A stretch of 34,944 nt of DNA from a virus. Positions 14,621 to 28,576 of this stretch are shown in pieces. Position 1 is the stretch's first letter. Each line of letters begins with the position of its first letter. A model generated the notes under the pieces. The model was not told the DNA's origin, made no database searches, and worked only from the letters and a program-made list of their open reading frames with translations. Where the stretch lies: positions 1-34,944 of IMG/VR virus record IMGVR_UViG_3300032291_001659. One strand, written 5' to 3'. Made by a program: the position numbers and the translations under genes.

Positions 14621-15967
14621 TTAGGCGAAGGCTGCGCGGTAGCCGCCGCCGCGTCGAACCATGTCGGGAATCTCGGCCTTGAGCCGACGCCGCTCTTGTT
14701 CAAGGATCGGAGCAAGTTCGGCCCGCGAGACGCCCGCCGCGATGTTGTAATTGACGGTGACGCTTCCGCTGCCCGAACCGCTGCCGCCGCCCATCTTGTT
14801 ATTCGGCACGATGGTGCCCGACGCGTGCGGAACGAACAGCTCCGGCCCTTGCTCGCCGACGACGTAGGGCGAGCCGCCGCTGACGGGTCCGCCGGCTGCC
14901 ATAAATGGGATTTTCAATGCGGCAGAGATACCTTTTGCAAGCGGTGCTGTCACCATTTGCTGGAAAACCAGCCGCACCAAATCACGGCCGAGCGAGCGGA
15001 CGACCTCGCCGAGCTTTTGGCCGCTGAGGATCGCGTCCTCGAAGCCTTGGGCGATCATGTCGCCGGCTTTCAAAAAGATCGCGTCGTTTTCCGCAAGAAT
15101 CTTGTTCAGCTTTAGGTTCACGTCCGTCTGCTCTTTCATGAGCTTCAGTTTTCTTTCTTCGATCATTCCGACTGCTTTGCCGTTCGCGATTGCTGTGCTC
15201 ATCTCGTTGTTGAGCTGAATCATTTGCTGATTTTGAATCCCGCGCAGTTCATTAAGTGCCCTTATATTATCCGGCCTTGAGATTTCAGCAATTTCTCCCA
15301 TGGGTTTGCTCTTCGTCAGCTCAACTTGCGCGTCCGCAAGTTGCTTCGATAAATCCAGCCCCACCTGCCGTTCGACGTTGTAGGCTCTTGCCAGCTCCAC
15401 TTCCAGCTTTGCTCGGTCAAGCGGCTTGCTTTCGTCAACGGCTGCCATCGCTTTTTCAAGTCTCTCCACATCTGCGGTAGCTTCATCAAAAGCAGCGCCA
15501 GTTGATTGTCCGATTTTGTCGAAATCTTTGCCGAGAGACTGAACCGTTTCCCCGAGCGATTTGATTTCTTTCGCCGACTGTTCTTTTCTAAATTGTCCCA
15601 GTTTTTTCTGCAAATCCGTCTCGTCTAAAATTCCGACCATTTCACCCAAAGCAAAGCCGGCACGGGTAAGTGCGGCAGGAATTTGCACAATAAAGTTGAG
15701 CAGCCCCTCGATTGCATTTTGGAAGCGCATTGCTCCAAGAATTTGCTCGTCGCTCATTCCCATCTCATCGCTCGCTGTTACGACCTGATCGATTTTGCCT
15801 TTCAGCATCGTCATCGTCGCCACAAGCGCACTGCCACCCAAAAGATTTTTGCCTAGTGTCCCGATGCTTGCGGTGGTTTTTTGCAAGCGCGTCAGACTAT
15901 TCTGAATCCCAGCAAAAGCCTTCTTCGTGTCATCGACCGCCCGCAGTGTGAATGTTGCCTCAGCCAT
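14621..15967 (-). CDS. tape measure protein
   Basis: A 448-residue, helix-rich protein. The N-terminus (VDDTKKAFAGIQNSLTRLQK) and central coiled coils (about 120-290) are typical of tape measures, and the C-terminus has the diagnostic FMAAGGPVSGGSPYVVGEQG then PELFVPHASGTIVPN, followed by a Gly/Ser run. One hydrophobic segment lies near residues 85-115. It sets tail length and is ejected on infection. At about 0.15 nm per residue, a family rule of thumb, the tail would be roughly 65 nm, short for a siphovirus. Its ATG overlaps the end of the frameshifted chaperone frame, as in lambda G-T-H. Confidence 0.9.
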   Translation of the reverse strand: MAEATFTLRAVDDTKKAFAGIQNSLTRLQKTTASIGTLGKNLLGGSALVATMTMLKGKIDQVVTASDEMGMSDEQILGAMRFQNAIEGLLNFIVQIPAALTRAGFALGEMVGILDETDLQKKLGQFRKEQSAKEIKSLGETVQSLGKDFDKIGQSTGAAFDEATADVERLEKAMAAVDESKPLDRAKLEVELARAYNVERQVGLDLSKQLADAQVELTKSKPMGEIAEISRPDNIRALNELRGIQNQQMIQLNNEMSTAIANGKAVGMIEERKLKLMKEQTDVNLKLNKILAENDAIFLKAGDMIAQGFEDAILSGQKLGEVVRSLGRDLVRLVFQQMVTAPLAKGISAALKIPFMAAGGPVSGGSPYVVGEQGPELFVPHASGTIVPNNKMGGGSGSGSGSVTVNYNIAAGVSRAELAPILEQERRRLKAEIPDMVRRGGGYRAAFA

Positions 15968-16444
15968 GGTTTTTAAGTTTTCGGTTTTGGTGTTCGATGT
16001 AGGCGAGCCAGCCCGTTAGTTCCTGAGCTGGCATCGCTAGCACCTCGTGGGCAAATTTGTGCAGACGATCCGCGAGCGCGTAAACGGCGAGGAGGTCTGC
16101 CGCCTCCCCACCGTAGATCAGTTTTTTAGGTCGTCCACCTTCGGCGAATCAGCATCCGCAAGAATGGCGTTTGCGACGCGGCCGACGACGTTGCTGTCCG
16201 CCTTGTTCAACAGCGTTGGCTTGTGCTCAATCGTGAAGAGTTTCACGCCGTGCTCGTCGGTCGCTTTCATGATCAAGATGTCCACGAGCAGCTCCATGTC
16301 GTTCTCTTTGCTGCGACGATAAAGCCGGTTCTTTTCCGAGAGCGTGACCGGCGTTGCGTGCACGACGAGCTTCCACTCCGGCACGTCGATCTTGCGCGTG
16401 CCGAGTGAGGCAAAGTGTTCTCTGACGAGGTCGATTGCGTCCAT
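15960..16444 (-). CDS. tail assembly chaperone, -1 frameshift product (G-T)
   Basis: A second frame, in -1 register to the 108-residue chaperone, is open from the slippery heptamer to a TGA at 15960-15962, eight bases inside the tape-measure gene. Slipping gives a 161-residue fusion: residues 1-107 of the G-like part, then Lys-Lys-Leu-Ile-Tyr and a 53-residue extension containing EAADLLAVYALADRLHKFAH and MPAQELTGWLAYIE, similar in style to the T part of other siphophages. The longer form is expected to bind the tape measure and the tail tube subunit during tail assembly, at a low molar ratio to the short form. Confidence 0.82.
16089..16127 (-). other. programmed -1 frameshift signal: slippery heptamer plus hairpin
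   Basis: On the minus strand the codons are CTA AAA AAC TGA, giving the heptamer A-AAA-AAC in the zero-frame phase X-XXY-YYZ (16121-16127), immediately before the stop. Eleven bases downstream of the heptamer, GGGGAGG (16103-16109) can pair with CCTCCTC (16089-16095) across a 7-base loop with one G-T wobble, a possible stimulatory stem. This matches the programmed frameshift conserved in siphophage tail-chaperone genes. The spacer is slightly longer than the common 5-9 bases. Confidence 0.85.
16118..16444 (-). CDS. tail assembly chaperone (G-like, unshifted)
   Basis: A 108-residue protein (MDAIDLVREHFASLGTRKID at the start) located between the tube protein and the tape measure, the invariant place for the tail assembly chaperone. 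It contains KLVVHATPVTLSEKNRLYRR and DMELLVDILIMKATDEHG, helical and charged. The stop TGA directly follows the slippery heptamer A-AAA-AAC, allowing a fraction of ribosomes to make the longer product. The leader is G-free and CA-rich (AAACACACAACACACAC before ATG) with no Shine-Dalgarno sequence. Confidence 0.82.
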   Translation of the reverse strand: MDAIDLVREHFASLGTRKIDVPEWKLVVHATPVTLSEKNRLYRRSKENDMELLVDILIMKATDEHGVKLFTIEHKPTLLNKADSNVVGRVANAILADADSPKVDDLKN

Positions 16445-16472: not shown

Positions 16473-16859
16473 TTAAGCCGTCAACGTTGATAGCGGACCG
16501 TTACCTTCGAAGGCAATCGAGCCTTCTATGATACCGTCAAAGCTAGCACTCACATTAAACTGGGTCACGATGGCGGCGCCCGAGTAGTAAACATCGCCGG
16601 TGGATGCGCCCTCTGGGTAAAGGTTGAGCGTGACCTGCGAGCCGATGGTGATCAGGAGTTGGCCGGCATCGCCTTCGTCCCAGTAAAGGTCACCAGAAAC
16701 CGAGAACGATTTCATGGACGCGAGCCGGGTGCGGTAGGTGTCGCCGATAACCGAATCTTCCACGGTGTCGGAGGTGTGGGTCAGAGCGTAGTTGCGCAGC
16801 TCGCCGATGGTCGTGCTGGATAATTTGATTAGGCCTTCGCGGCCGAGTTTTGTTGCCAT
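16473..16859 (-). CDS. major tail tube protein
   Basis: A 128-residue beta-rich protein starting MATKLGREGLIKLSSTTIGE. It has YALTHTSDTVEDSVIGDTYR, FSVSGDLYWDEGDAGQLLIT and FNVSASFDGIIEGSIAFEGN, the alternating strand pattern of small phage tail-tube proteins (GTA gp9 / phage tube family). It would polymerise into the tail tube around the tape measure. It lies directly upstream of the chaperone pair and downstream of the terminator-like gene, as expected. No Ig-like extension is present. Confidence 0.82.
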   Translation of the reverse strand: MATKLGREGLIKLSSTTIGELRNYALTHTSDTVEDSVIGDTYRTRLASMKSFSVSGDLYWDEGDAGQLLITIGSQVTLNLYPEGASTGDVYYSGAAIVTQFNVSASFDGIIEGSIAFEGNGPLSTLTA

Positions 16860-18433: not shown

Positions 18434-19072
18434 TCAAACCGTGCCGAAGTGCTGCGCGTGCAGCGCCGGCCGGTTCGCTTTGATCCACGGCTCGGCGTCA
18501 GCCATGCACTTGGCCGCGTCGTTGCCGCACGTCTGAGAGCCGACGTGGTGGACGTAGGCCCGGGAAACGAAGTGCCGGCGCTTCATGTCCGCGCATTGAA
18601 CGTCATCGGAAAACCAGTTGATTGGCGGAAAATCGACCCACGCGTCTCGGTGAATCCACGCGCAAATCGGAGCGATGACCGGCGTCTCGATGATGCTGCG
18701 CTCCGACTCGAACCGCAGAAAGTCCAAGCGCCCGGTGCCGCATCGGATGTTCTGTGCGCCTCGTGCGTAGTCCGACCTGGCTGCGACGTAGCCGACGTTC
18801 TCGCAATGTTCTTTGATCAGCTTCACATCCGCGAAAAGGTCGCGCCATGTCGTCGGCGTAAACACTATGTCGTCGTTGCAGATGACGATCTGGTCGTGCT
18901 CCTTGAACGCGATCCCCGCCGCGTGGTTGTAAGCCTCGCCGAACGTCGCGCCGACGCCGTGGAAATAGTATGTGCGGACCTCTCGCGGCACGTAAGCTTT
19001 GACCGACGCCTTGAGCACGTCGAGACATCGCGCGTTGGTCGTGCAGACAACGATTGCCGGCTCGGGAATCAT
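18434..19072 (-). CDS. glycosyltransferase-like protein (family 2 type fold)
   Basis: A 212-residue protein: PAIVVCTTNARCLDVLKASV (N-terminal Rossmann-like strand and helix), GATFGEAYNHAAGIAFKEHD at 41-60, VICNDDIVFTP at 63-73 with Asp67-Asp68 as candidate metal/nucleotide-sugar site, and INWFSDDVQCADMKRRHF near 150-167. This pattern is that of small GT-A glycosyltransferases without a signal peptide, acting in the cytoplasm. It partners the larger glycosyltransferase (ATGA overlap, 19069-19072). Sitting among head genes, the likely acceptor is a virion protein, but host glycans are possible. Confidence 0.75.
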   Translation of the reverse strand: MIPEPAIVVCTTNARCLDVLKASVKAYVPREVRTYYFHGVGATFGEAYNHAAGIAFKEHDQIVICNDDIVFTPTTWRDLFADVKLIKEHCENVGYVAARSDYARGAQNIRCGTGRLDFLRFESERSIIETPVIAPICAWIHRDAWVDFPPINWFSDDVQCADMKRRHFVSRAYVHHVGSQTCGNDAAKCMADAEPWIKANRPALHAQHFGTV

Positions 19073-20454
19073 GCTTTTTTCGCCCCCAGAATTTGCTCGA
19101 TGTTCTCCGCGTCAACCAGCGTGCAGCCGCTCGCAATGATGCGCTCGTCCCAGCCGTGCGGCGCAACCATGCCGTCCTCAGCGTTGATCTGAATCACGCC
19201 CGGCTCGGCTGCGCTCGGCTCGTCTACGTCGTGCAAGAACTGCTTCGCCATGCCCATCGTCTCGGCGTCGTCGGCACGCACGAGAAAGCGGTGTTCGATG
19301 CGCTCCGGCTGCGCCGCCGTCGAAAGCCAAGCGTCGCGGAAGGCGACCGATTTGGTCGAGTTGCCGAGCGTCTTTTGCGTCAGCCGAATCTTCGGCTGGG
19401 TGTGCTTGTGGAACACGAGCTGCATCGCCGCCGCGTCGTCTAATTGGCCGGCGAGACGAAACGCACGCGCCGCGAGGTCGTGCCCGGCCCAGCCATACCA
19501 CTTGACCTCATGAGTCCACGGCCGGTCCTTCTCGGTAGGCTCGGGAAGCGCGAGCATCCGCGACGCCCAGAAGCTTGCCCGCTTGCCGTCGTTGCGCTCG
19601 AACGAGAGCAGGATGACCGAGGCGATGGCCTCGCGGCACCACGGGAAAACGCCGTGCGCCGACATCGCGAACTGCATCGCCTCGCGTCGGGAAGCGACGA
19701 GTCGCGCAAGGTTCAGCCCGACTTCGTAGCGGAAGCTGTCGTCAAGATTCGGGAAGCTCAGCGCGATGCGCCCGAACTGCTCGGCTGCGGTCTTGTTGCC
19801 GGCGCAATAATGCTCTTGGTGAATGTAGAAATACTGAGTCGCAGACTCCGCCACGCTGCGCCCTAAGATCGCCAAGTTTCGTTTGCGGTTGTCCTGCTTG
19901 ATTGCAATCGGCTGATGATGCCAGACCGGCGTTGACCAATCGAAATGCCGGTCGTTCGGAAGTAGGAGCAAGTTCTCGTGAACGTCGTGATGCCAGACGC
20001 GCCCGCTCGCAAATGCGCTGCGCCGGACGATCCGCTCGCGATGCAGCTTCTTCCCGGTCCCGCGCACGTCGTAAGGGCAACGGACCATGAGCACGTCGTC
20101 TGATAGCTCCGCGAGCCGGTCCCGCAGCTTCTCGGCGTCCGCAATCACGTCGTCGCAGTCGGCCCAGATCAGCCAATCGCCGCACGCCTGCGCGAACGAT
20201 TGATTGCGCGCACGGGCAAAGGAATCGACGTGCTTCCATGCCTGCGCCGTGGCGCCGTTCTTGTATTCCGAGAAGATAAATCCGACCGAGTGCTCCATGC
20301 ACCAGTCGCGCACGATCTGCTCGGTCGCGTCCGGTTCCTGCGAGCCGATGGCGCGCACGAGTGAGACCTCGTCAATAACGCCGTCGAAGCTCTCGAGCAT
20401 CGCGCCGATCTGTGCCGCCTCGTTTCCCGTAATTACGCAAAGCGAAAGTATCAT
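19069..20454 (-). CDS. family 2 glycosyltransferase with helical C-terminal region
   Basis: A 461-residue protein. It opens LSLCVITGNEAAQIGAMLES, the classic GT2 N-terminus (nucleotide-binding strand), and has WLIWADCDDVIADAEKLRDR with the D-x-D at 99-101. Residues about 215-370 are helical with TPR-like spacing (AGNKTAAEQFGRIALSFPNL, AGHDLAARAFRLAGQLDDAA), which could bind a protein acceptor. No membrane span or signal peptide. It is the first gene after the capsid terminator, with a G-poor CA-rich leader and no Shine-Dalgarno sequence. Probably transfers a sugar to a capsid or tail protein; the target is not readable. Confidence 0.85.
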   Translation of the reverse strand: MILSLCVITGNEAAQIGAMLESFDGVIDEVSLVRAIGSQEPDATEQIVRDWCMEHSVGFIFSEYKNGATAQAWKHVDSFARARNQSFAQACGDWLIWADCDDVIADAEKLRDRLAELSDDVLMVRCPYDVRGTGKKLHRERIVRRSAFASGRVWHHDVHENLLLLPNDRHFDWSTPVWHHQPIAIKQDNRKRNLAILGRSVAESATQYFYIHQEHYCAGNKTAAEQFGRIALSFPNLDDSFRYEVGLNLARLVASRREAMQFAMSAHGVFPWCREAIASVILLSFERNDGKRASFWASRMLALPEPTEKDRPWTHEVKWYGWAGHDLAARAFRLAGQLDDAAAMQLVFHKHTQPKIRLTQKTLGNSTKSVAFRDAWLSTAAQPERIEHRFLVRADDAETMGMAKQFLHDVDEPSAAEPGVIQINAEDGMVAPHGWDERIIASGCTLVDAENIEQILGAKKA

Positions 20455-24916: not shown

Positions 24917-27900
24917 TTAGACGTTGCTTGCGAGTAGGTAGTAGGTGACGCCGCCGATGACGATTGTTACCTTGTGCGTCGAGGCGACCGCTACGGCTGC
25001 GGCGACGGTGTTGCCGATGGCAAGTGCTCCCGTCGCGCTCAACGCCCCCGTCACGGCGAGTCCGCTTGTCCCATCAACTTGCAAAACAGTAGTCCAACTC
25101 GCGCTGTTCACGCGGCCTTGGAGTTTCCAACGAGAAAATCCTGCACCAGAGTCGTCGTCAATAGCTCGGTGCCCATAGCCTAAGCCGGATGGAGAGGCAA
25201 ACCACTCTACACCTGACAATGATCGCGAAACATCAAATTGCAGTCCCGAGCTGCCGTTCACCGTGCCGCCAATTTTAACCAGTGAGTCGCTCGACACCGC
25301 CCCTATCACGGCTAGGCCGGTGGAGGAAACGGTGGCCCGAATTGTGCCGCCTGTGTAAAAGTGCATCGGCGTTGCATTTGCGTTGTATAAAACCGCCGCA
25401 TACGCCGTAGAACCGGGGAAAAAACCGCCGCCTGTGCTGGATTCAGTCCCAACGTAAAAATCTGCTCCGGTGCTCTGAAACCGAGCAAAGCTCTGTGCTG
25501 TGCTCACCGTGTTGAGCGGGTTGGAATTGACCCCAAAGCGAGAAGAAACAAACGAGGCTGCCGACGTTTCTCCCGTCGCACTCACCGTCGTAAACGCGCC
25601 CGTGCTCGGCGTCGTGGCTCCCACCGTGCCGTTGAACGCTCCGCTCGTAATGCCGTTCAGCGTATTCGTGCTCGTGCCCGTTGTGCTGCCAATCGTGATG
25701 GCCGTGGTGCTACCTGCCAGCCCGCCCGTGCCGATGTTGAGGGTTTTGGTCGATCCGCTTGCCGTTGCGCCCGCGTCGATGTTGATGGTATTGCCCACCG
25801 TCGACTGCCCGAAGGTCAGCGTGCCCGTCGTGGCCGTGCCGCCGATAGTCGCCGTTCCAGTTGTGAGGTTAGTGCCGAGCACGTGCGTTGAGGTCGCCGC
25901 GCCAGACATCGTTGCGTTACCTTGGATTGTCGCGTTGCCGGTGCAGGTGAATGCCGTGAGCGACGGGTTGCCGTTTAGGACCACCGATCCGGTTCCGGAA
26001 AAAGTGGAAAATTCGGTGATGTTCGCTTCCCAGTCGGTGACGGCTGTGCTGCCGGTCGCAATGCATTTCACCAATGCCGTTGTGCCTATTGGCACGTTCG
26101 ATAAAAGTGCGGTTCCGGCGCTAGTTTGAATGTTAATTACCGCGCTACTATTGTTGCAGATAGAAAACGACCAGCCCGTCTCCAACGTAGAGGTGACTGG
26201 AAGGATCACGGTCTGACTGGTGGAGCCTGTAAAAATCTGATAGTTGGCCGACGTGGCTGTAAGCGTGACTGGTGATGCGCTCGTCACCGTCGTTGCAATG
26301 TTGGTTAGTTTTGCTAGCGCTTGATTGGATGTCGTGGAGTTAGTGCCTCCGTTTGCAAAATCTAGCGTGCCAGTAACGCCCGTGGTGAGCGGTAGTCCGG
26401 TGGCGCTTGTCAGCACCGCCGCAGATGGCGTCCCCAGATTCGGCGTGACGAGGGTTGGAGACGTGGCGAACACAAGCGCGCCCGAGCCGGTCTCATCTGT
26501 CACCGCCGCCGCAAGATTTGCAGAGGATGGCGTCCCTAGAAAAGTCGCAACGCCAGAGCCGAGACTCGTCAGCCCGGTGCCGCCGTTGGCGACTGCGACG
26601 GGCGAGGTGAGCGAAAAGACCGATCCGGTGAGCGTCAGCCCGGTGCCGGCCGTAAACGTGCCTGCGCCCGAGAACTGCGACCACGGCAGAGCGGTCGTGC
26701 CGAGCGTGCCGCCTGCGTTCGCTGTGCAGACGAAACCGCAATCGGCGTTGACCGTGCCCTGCTCAATAAACGTAAAAGCCGAGGTTAGCGCGTCCCACGT
26801 GTTCGCGTCAGTCGTGCGCGTCCACGATCCCGAGGCGCAGAGATAAATTCCGTTGTTCTGCGAGAGCGATTGATTCTTCACCAGCACGCGATTGCCCGCG
26901 ACGACGCTCACGTCATCGATCGTCTGCGCTCCGCTGAGCGTAATGTTCGCCGTGGTCGCTGCGACGCACGAGGCTTTCGCGTCGAGCCCCTGCGCGACGC
27001 TATCGACATACGACTTGTTTGCGATGTCGGTTGAACCGCTCGGAGCGTTTGCCACCGTGCCGGCTGTCGCGGTAAGGCTCGCAATCGTGCCGAGCGATGT
27101 CAGTGAGGAGGCGGTAACGCCGGCCGCGAGCGTGTTGCCCGAGAGTGTTCCGGCCGCCGCCGTGACTGTAATTGCTGCCGTGCCGTCGAAGTTGACTCCG
27201 TTGATCGCTCTTGCGGTCTGCAACGCCGTTGCCGTAGCCGCGTTGCCGGTCGTGGATTGGTTGAGAGTCGGGAAAGTGCAGTTCGCAAGGTTGCCGCTTG
27301 CAGGAGTGCCGAGAACCGGCGTGGTCATCGTCGGGCTCGTCAGCGTCTTGTTTGTCAGCGTATCCGTGGTCGCACGTCCGACCAGGGTGTCGGTCGCGTC
27401 GGGAAGAGTGACCACGCGGCCGGCTGTCGAAACGGCGTCAATCAGCGTCACCGCGCTTGCGGCGCTGGATGAACTGCGGAAGCGGATTCCCTTGTTGAAA
27501 TCCGTTCCGTCGCTGATCGTGAAAAGTCCGCTGCCTTTCGGCTGCAAATGCACGCCGATGTTCGTGCTTGCGCCCTCGGCGAGAACGTGAAGCGGAGCGC
27601 CCACGCCGGTCCCGTTCTTGATTTCCAAGTAATCCGTCGCGCTGGCTACGCCGGTCAGTCGCACGACGTCGTTGCCGCCGCCAACGATTCCCACCGTGTC
27701 CGCTGCCGGGCGATACATTCCGGTGTTCGTGTCGCTGACGAAGAAAAGGGATGGAGCCGCTTCGGTTCCATCGGTGAGCTCAATCTCTCCCTCGTTGCCG
27801 ATAATCGTGATGTCAGTTGAAGTCTGGTTGATCGTGATGTTAGCGCCGGCGACTAGATTCTTTGGGACGTAATTCGGACCCACGCTTCCGAGAATTTGAC

Positions 27901-28576
27901 CATCGCTCGGCGCTGGAATCAGGTCGGTAATCGACGCCACGCTCGGACCACCGCCGCCGTGTCCGCGTGCTGCGCTCAGCGTCCAGTTCGTCGCGTTCCG
28001 GCCGGGCCGCTCGCGGTTGTCGTTGATGTTCGACACGAACGAATCGCCGTTGAACGTCACGAGGTCCAACTTTTGATACGTATCGTTCGGCGTCCACTTG
28101 CCGCGAGGGTTCAGCCCGCGAGGTTCGGCGAATTCTTTCCGCAGTTGGTCGATTTCGCCGGCACGCGGAAAGCGCGAGAGTTCATCGGTGACGATGCTTT
28201 TAACTGCGTTCGGCAAAGCCGACGCCGCTTCTGCGATTCGCGCCTCGGCCTTTTCGAGCAACGTGGCGTTCTGCTCGCGCTCGGCCATGAGCACCGAATA
28301 GCGCGCTGCGGTCGTGACTTCCAGAGCCTTGCCGAGTTCGTCAACCTTGGCGGTCAGCGCTGCGCTGGATTGCGCGTGCGCGTCCTGTGCGCGGGCGATG
28401 ACCAGTTGCTCAAGCTCACTGCGAATCGCTGGCTCGATCTCTTCGAGGTTGCGCTCGATCTCCGATGACAAATGGTCGCGCAGTTGCGGCAGAGACTCCA
28501 CCAGCTTTTTCAGCTCTGCGCGCTGGATGATGGCCAACTCAACGAGGTTATCGATTTCTGTCTGGGTGTGGATCAT
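24917..28576 (-). CDS. large fibre-like structural protein with coiled coil, CBM-like and repeat regions
   Basis: A 1219-residue protein. Residues 1-145 are coiled coil (IERNLEEIEPAIRSELEQLV and on). Residues about 150-205 form a carbohydrate-binding-like segment (GKWTPNDTYQKLDLVTFNGD then SFVSN, similar to CBM5/12-type modules). From about 215 to 1100 there is Gly/Thr/Ser-rich repeat sequence such as LTNKTLTSPTMTTPVLGTPA, VAVANGGTGLTSLGSGVATF and NGTVGATTPSTGAFTT, typical of phage fibre shafts. The end (VTIVIGGVTYYLLASNV) is a short cap; no S74 peptidase chaperone is visible. Probably a side or tail fibre that binds host sugars. Position directly after the portal gene is unusual. Confidence 0.8.
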   Translation of the reverse strand: MIHTQTEIDNLVELAIIQRAELKKLVESLPQLRDHLSSEIERNLEEIEPAIRSELEQLVIARAQDAHAQSSAALTAKVDELGKALEVTTAARYSVLMAEREQNATLLEKAEARIAEAASALPNAVKSIVTDELSRFPRAGEIDQLRKEFAEPRGLNPRGKWTPNDTYQKLDLVTFNGDSFVSNINDNRERPGRNATNWTLSAARGHGGGGPSVASITDLIPAPSDGQILGSVGPNYVPKNLVAGANITINQTSTDITIIGNEGEIELTDGTEAAPSLFFVSDTNTGMYRPAADTVGIVGGGNDVVRLTGVASATDYLEIKNGTGVGAPLHVLAEGASTNIGVHLQPKGSGLFTISDGTDFNKGIRFRSSSSAASAVTLIDAVSTAGRVVTLPDATDTLVGRATTDTLTNKTLTSPTMTTPVLGTPASGNLANCTFPTLNQSTTGNAATATALQTARAINGVNFDGTAAITVTAAAGTLSGNTLAAGVTASSLTSLGTIASLTATAGTVANAPSGSTDIANKSYVDSVAQGLDAKASCVAATTANITLSGAQTIDDVSVVAGNRVLVKNQSLSQNNGIYLCASGSWTRTTDANTWDALTSAFTFIEQGTVNADCGFVCTANAGGTLGTTALPWSQFSGAGTFTAGTGLTLTGSVFSLTSPVAVANGGTGLTSLGSGVATFLGTPSSANLAAAVTDETGSGALVFATSPTLVTPNLGTPSAAVLTSATGLPLTTGVTGTLDFANGGTNSTTSNQALAKLTNIATTVTSASPVTLTATSANYQIFTGSTSQTVILPVTSTLETGWSFSICNNSSAVINIQTSAGTALLSNVPIGTTALVKCIATGSTAVTDWEANITEFSTFSGTGSVVLNGNPSLTAFTCTGNATIQGNATMSGAATSTHVLGTNLTTGTATIGGTATTGTLTFGQSTVGNTINIDAGATASGSTKTLNIGTGGLAGSTTAITIGSTTGTSTNTLNGITSGAFNGTVGATTPSTGAFTTVSATGETSAASFVSSRFGVNSNPLNTVSTAQSFARFQSTGADFYVGTESSTGGGFFPGSTAYAAVLYNANATPMHFYTGGTIRATVSSTGLAVIGAVSSDSLVKIGGTVNGSSGLQFDVSRSLSGVEWFASPSGLGYGHRAIDDDSGAGFSRWKLQGRVNSASWTTVLQVDGTSGLAVTGALSATGALAIGNTVAAAVAVASTHKVTIVIGGVTYYLLASNV

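Follow-up and report, generated by a model that had tools for sequence, protein, structure and literature searches.

The tail chaperone gene of this freshwater phage ends in a slippery sequence that runs directly into the stop codon. Does the phage also make a second, longer chaperone by shifting ribosomes into the −1 frame, in the manner of the lambda G/GT class?

The chaperone locus

The window, i.e., the whole 34,944-base record analysed here, carries a tailed-phage module comprising terminase, lambda-type portal, major head protein, tail terminator, tail tube, chaperone, tape measure and tail proteins, and the putative frameshift locus lies on its minus strand (Table 1); the first-pass annotation had named no strand. 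The chaperone gene G is sited between the genes for the major tail protein and the tape measure, as in the lambda-type G/GT class. A beta-1,4-glycosyltransferase-like gene (19069-20454, minus strand; phrog_13126, 1.5e-13) was found within the head-tail gene block, and an ORF of 1219 residues with no significant Pfam family (24917-28576, minus strand) adjoins the portal gene.

Table 1. Positions of the genes and putative frameshift elements in the window
Feature	Positions	Strand	Remarks
Major tail tube protein	16473-16859	−	Upstream neighbour of G; phrog_1407 (6e-16), PF06199 (2e-05)
G-type tail assembly chaperone ORF, 108 aa	16118-16444	−	phrog_344, tail assembly chaperone (8e-07)
Slippery heptamer A_AAA_AAC	16121-16127	−	X_XXY_YYZ phase; touches the stop
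Zero-frame stop TGA	16118-16120	−	Adjoins the heptamer
Hairpin, presumed stimulator	16084-16114	−	Arms 16114-16103 and 16095-16084
T-like −1 extension	15960-16121	−	53 codons (16121-15963) and stop TGA (15962-15960); predicted helical, conserved A-x2-L ... W core
Tape-measure gene, 448 aa	14621-15967	−	phrog_1538 (9e-11) and phrog_5062 (5e-09), both tape measure

A Foldseek search using the structure model of G (pLDDT 84.7) revealed the HK97 tail assembly chaperone (2ob9) as the best solved match, with a probability of 1.00 and TM-scores of 0.54/0.56 at an E-value of only 0.008; among viral models, the 160-residue chaperone of phage RcRhea was matched. G models as having the HK97 chaperone fold, which supports the tail-chaperone identity that the first-pass annotation had given it. 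A sequence search of solved structures turned up nothing beyond designed helical repeats and one unrelated enzyme.

The 3′ end of G reads GAC CTA AAA AAC TGA, which places A_AAA_AAC in the right phase and against the stop, as had been noted before. AAAAAAC occurs nine times on this strand, about five being expected by chance, and an in-phase heptamer against a stop was found in two of the 198 ORFs with 60 aa or more, namely G and a spurious T7 run. A −1 shift at this site would add 53 residues and give a G-T fusion of 161 aa, the extension overlapping the tape-measure gene (ATG at 15967) by eight bases; the first-pass annotation had given the same extent. The stem that it mentioned was also borne out. 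The stem ACGGTGGGGAGG / CCTCCTCGCCGT (12 bp, 7-nt loop, −22.8 kcal/mol) begins after a 6-nt spacer and is one of six places of equal strength on the coding strand (11 of 17,452 40-nt windows). Downstream structural stimulators are common, though not universal, in the lambda-type G/GT class, and the hairpin is presumed to be one here. An Rfam search of the window gave no match. A Shine-Dalgarno-like AAGGTGG (16141-16135, minus strand) is located 7 nt 5′ of the heptamer and is kept in nearly all members of the window's clade; it could act as an upstream stimulator.

Conservation of the slip site and of the −1 frame

In viral contigs, phage records and genome contigs, 290 loci with a homologous G gene were found, the window included, at identities down to about 26-28%. 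They comprise the window's own clade (80 loci, 95-99% identity), HTVC026P-like, HTVC112P-like, DSL-LC06-like and phi3LM21-like clades, and RcRhea. The loci are non-independent samples, yet they represent several clades with different heptamers. Searching phage records at the DNA level returned nothing; a protein search was required to bring out the relatives. A scan covering genomes of bacteria and archaea found no relative of the window's G, and a broader profile hit one Pelagibacter MAG contig there. The eight reference fusions had diverged too far for their joint alignment to serve in scanning.

An in-phase heptamer (A_AAA_AAC, A_AAA_AAG or G_GGA_AAC) is present at all 290 loci. In 278 of them the stop follows immediately, and in the others it is separated from the heptamer by 3 nt (nine loci) or 12 nt (three loci). 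Three loci that appeared to be exceptions (L164, L167 and L168) were rejected as such, their heptamer being intact and the stop lying four codons further on. An intact chaperone with a destroyed heptamer, the combination that the first-pass annotation had named as one that would speak against a shift, was sought across these relatives and was found at 0 of the 290 loci. Contact between slip site and stop is a stable trait of the family; it may also minimise the doubly coding stretch.

The codons of the slip site depart from usage in the rest of the gene. The Lys codon of the heptamer is AAA in 52/52 distinct window-clade genes, whereas AAG is preferred elsewhere in the gene (144 AAA vs 320 AAG). 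In the AT-rich HTVC026P clade, the slip-site Asn codon is AAC in 69/69, as against 63 AAC vs 359 AAT elsewhere. The preceding Leu codon varies between CTA and TTA with its final A constant. The stop alternates between TGA and TAA in the window clade (TAA in three close relatives), a synonymous change in the −1 frame, where CTG becomes CTA and Leu is kept.

By chance alone, the −1 frame would stay open for 53 codons with a probability of about 0.26 in this sequence, so its openness was rejected as evidence and the case rests decisively on conservation. The same figure would suit a T-like part that is an unmade, chance open frame, and the GGGGAGG sequence within the stem would suit a separate protein translated from its own internal start. 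However, no ATG, GTG or TTG occurs in the −1 frame between the slip site and the conserved core, and in all relatives the −1 frame is continuous with G at the slip site. Furthermore, variable sites in the extension number 13, 6 and 37 of 53 at the first, second and third positions of the −1-frame codons, indicating that the −1 peptide is under protein-level constraint. The extension is predicted to be helical, and A-x2-L and the Trp are kept in nearly all members across clades. The tail-chaperone profile phrog_16513 covers G and T as one protein; it scored 42.2 bits with the fusion vs 20.6 with G alone and was matched over profile positions 8-157 of 160. Together with the constraint, this score supports the earlier description of the −1 segment as chaperone-like, and a separate or unmade T-like part is hardly credible. 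Pfam gave no match for G, T or the fusion, with nothing above the curated cut-off for the window protein; weak matches to the Pfam family Phage_TAC_13 were found in 7 of 32 relatives.

Considering that the heptamer is kept throughout, that T is conserved, that profiles and fold agree and that the RcRhea tail assembly chaperone is already deposited as a joined CDS, the locus appears to be an unannotated, ordinary member of the lambda G/GT class. We regard a lambda G/GT-type programmed −1 ribosomal frameshift as highly likely here, and two tail chaperones, one short and one long, are very probably made through −1 slippage.

Proposed routes into the −1 frame

Most ribosomes would end at the TGA and release the 108-residue G chaperone. 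A minority would be held up by the 12-bp hairpin, possibly also by the A-site stop codon; tRNA-Lys and tRNA-Asn would then slip from A_AAA_AAC to AAA_AAA, and reading would continue with CTG ATC TAC to give the G-T fusion. In the lambda model, G associates with the tape measure, T brings in the tail tube protein and the −1 shift occurs at a low level (reviewed in PMC5009743). The locus agrees with this model at each point accessible to sequence analysis. By analogy, G would coat the tape-measure protein here and the T part would recruit the tail tube protein, which would make the G:GT ratio important for tail assembly. We infer the occurrence of the shift, its rate and the roles of the products.

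The position of the stop may bear on the rate. Rous sarcoma virus and barley yellow dwarf virus also have a stop adjoining the slip site, and in an HIV-1 reporter a stop directly 3′ of the slip site lowers apparent −1 frameshifting (PMC4373837). The frameshift rate here may therefore be low. The mean distance between slip site and stop is 26 nt in annotated actinobacteriophage training data (PMC10885494).

The −1 frame might also be reached via an edited mRNA, if RNA polymerase slipped on the A run and added one A. The site is A-rich, and related genes elsewhere, such as dnaX and IS elements, can use either route (PMC5009743). The run is, however, only A6 in 52/52 distinct window-clade sequences, below the roughly nine or more A/T of transcriptional slippage sites, and in RcRhea it is only A3, within G_GGA_AAC. 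Ribosomal slippage, moreover, needs just what is seen here, a hairpin 6 nt downstream and strict X_XXY_YYZ phasing. Polymerase slippage is thus very improbable in the window. In its favour, the related HTVC026P clade has a run of exactly A9 in 72/72 distinct sequences (e.g., L082:3330-3342), and a stem was looked for there and none found (mean z −0.40). RNA-polymerase slippage possibly replaces stem-stimulated ribosomal slippage in that clade.

Returning to ribosomal slippage, the stem is strong in most members of the window clade; one sub-lineage (L054) has a weaker one (−17.8 kcal/mol including flank, z −0.6). Covariation of the stem is not above shuffles (411/500) and is uninformative in this clade because the sequences are too alike. 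The HTVC112P clade has a different 7-bp stem at about the same distance, with almost frozen arms and a varying loop; 47 distinct sequences share identical Ser, Asp, Arg and Ser codons in this stem. Covariation is uninformative there too.

A broader proposal, which we advance as speculative and rather unlikely, is that the route to the −1 frame changed within one chaperone family: the clades of the window and of HTVC112P would use ribosomal slippage with a hairpin, and the HTVC026P clade, with its invariant A9, would rely on slippage of RNA polymerase or of unaided ribosomes. The G:GT ratio would be set by an extra, release-factor-sensitive step that arises from the conserved contact of the slip site with the stop.

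Comparison with known systems

The −1 frameshifting of tail chaperones is well established in phage lambda and in numerous other tailed phages. The lambda gpG/gpGT shift was reportedly described by Levin in 1993 and by Xu in 2004 and 2013. Lambda uses the heptamer G_GGA_AAG and has a longer T part. As in lambda, the chaperone gene of the window lies beside the tape measure, with a probable −1 slip near its 3′ end and a presumed minority fusion product, but the heptamer is A_AAA_AAC touching the stop and the T part has 53 residues.

As had been predicted, plain ORF calling misses T: four Pelagibacter phages and DSL-LC06 were deposited without it, and phi3LM21 with a short separate CDS. The T-like domain can now be annotated in many freshwater and marine phages deposited without T, hundreds of contigs having been matched. 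The HTVC112P and HTVC111P records carry a minus-strand ORF over the T part (L084:2406-2552 and L085:2406-2558, respectively), which is probably spurious. The family also offers a natural series (A6 with a stem, A7 with a stem, A9 without a stem, and G_GGA_AAC) in which to compare the ways that homologous genes fix the same ratio of proteins.

The Pelagibacter phages HTVC026P, HTVC202P, HTVC111P and HTVC112P resemble the window in a G about 39-46% identical, a heptamer that touches the stop and a homologous, unannotated T. HTVC111P and HTVC112P differ from it in having A_AAA_AAG and the 7-bp stem, and HTVC026P and HTVC202P in having A9C without a stem. The Rhodobacter phages RcRhea and RcCronus (KR935216) share a homologous chaperone (26% on G) and a heptamer directly before TGA, whereas their heptamer is G_GGA_AAC and the extension has 46 residues. 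The HK97 chaperone is alike in its fold, as judged from the model, but unlike in sequence, G being 13-16% identical to it; for HK97-like chaperone genes, 6-7% frameshifting was measured in reporter experiments (PMC3711429).
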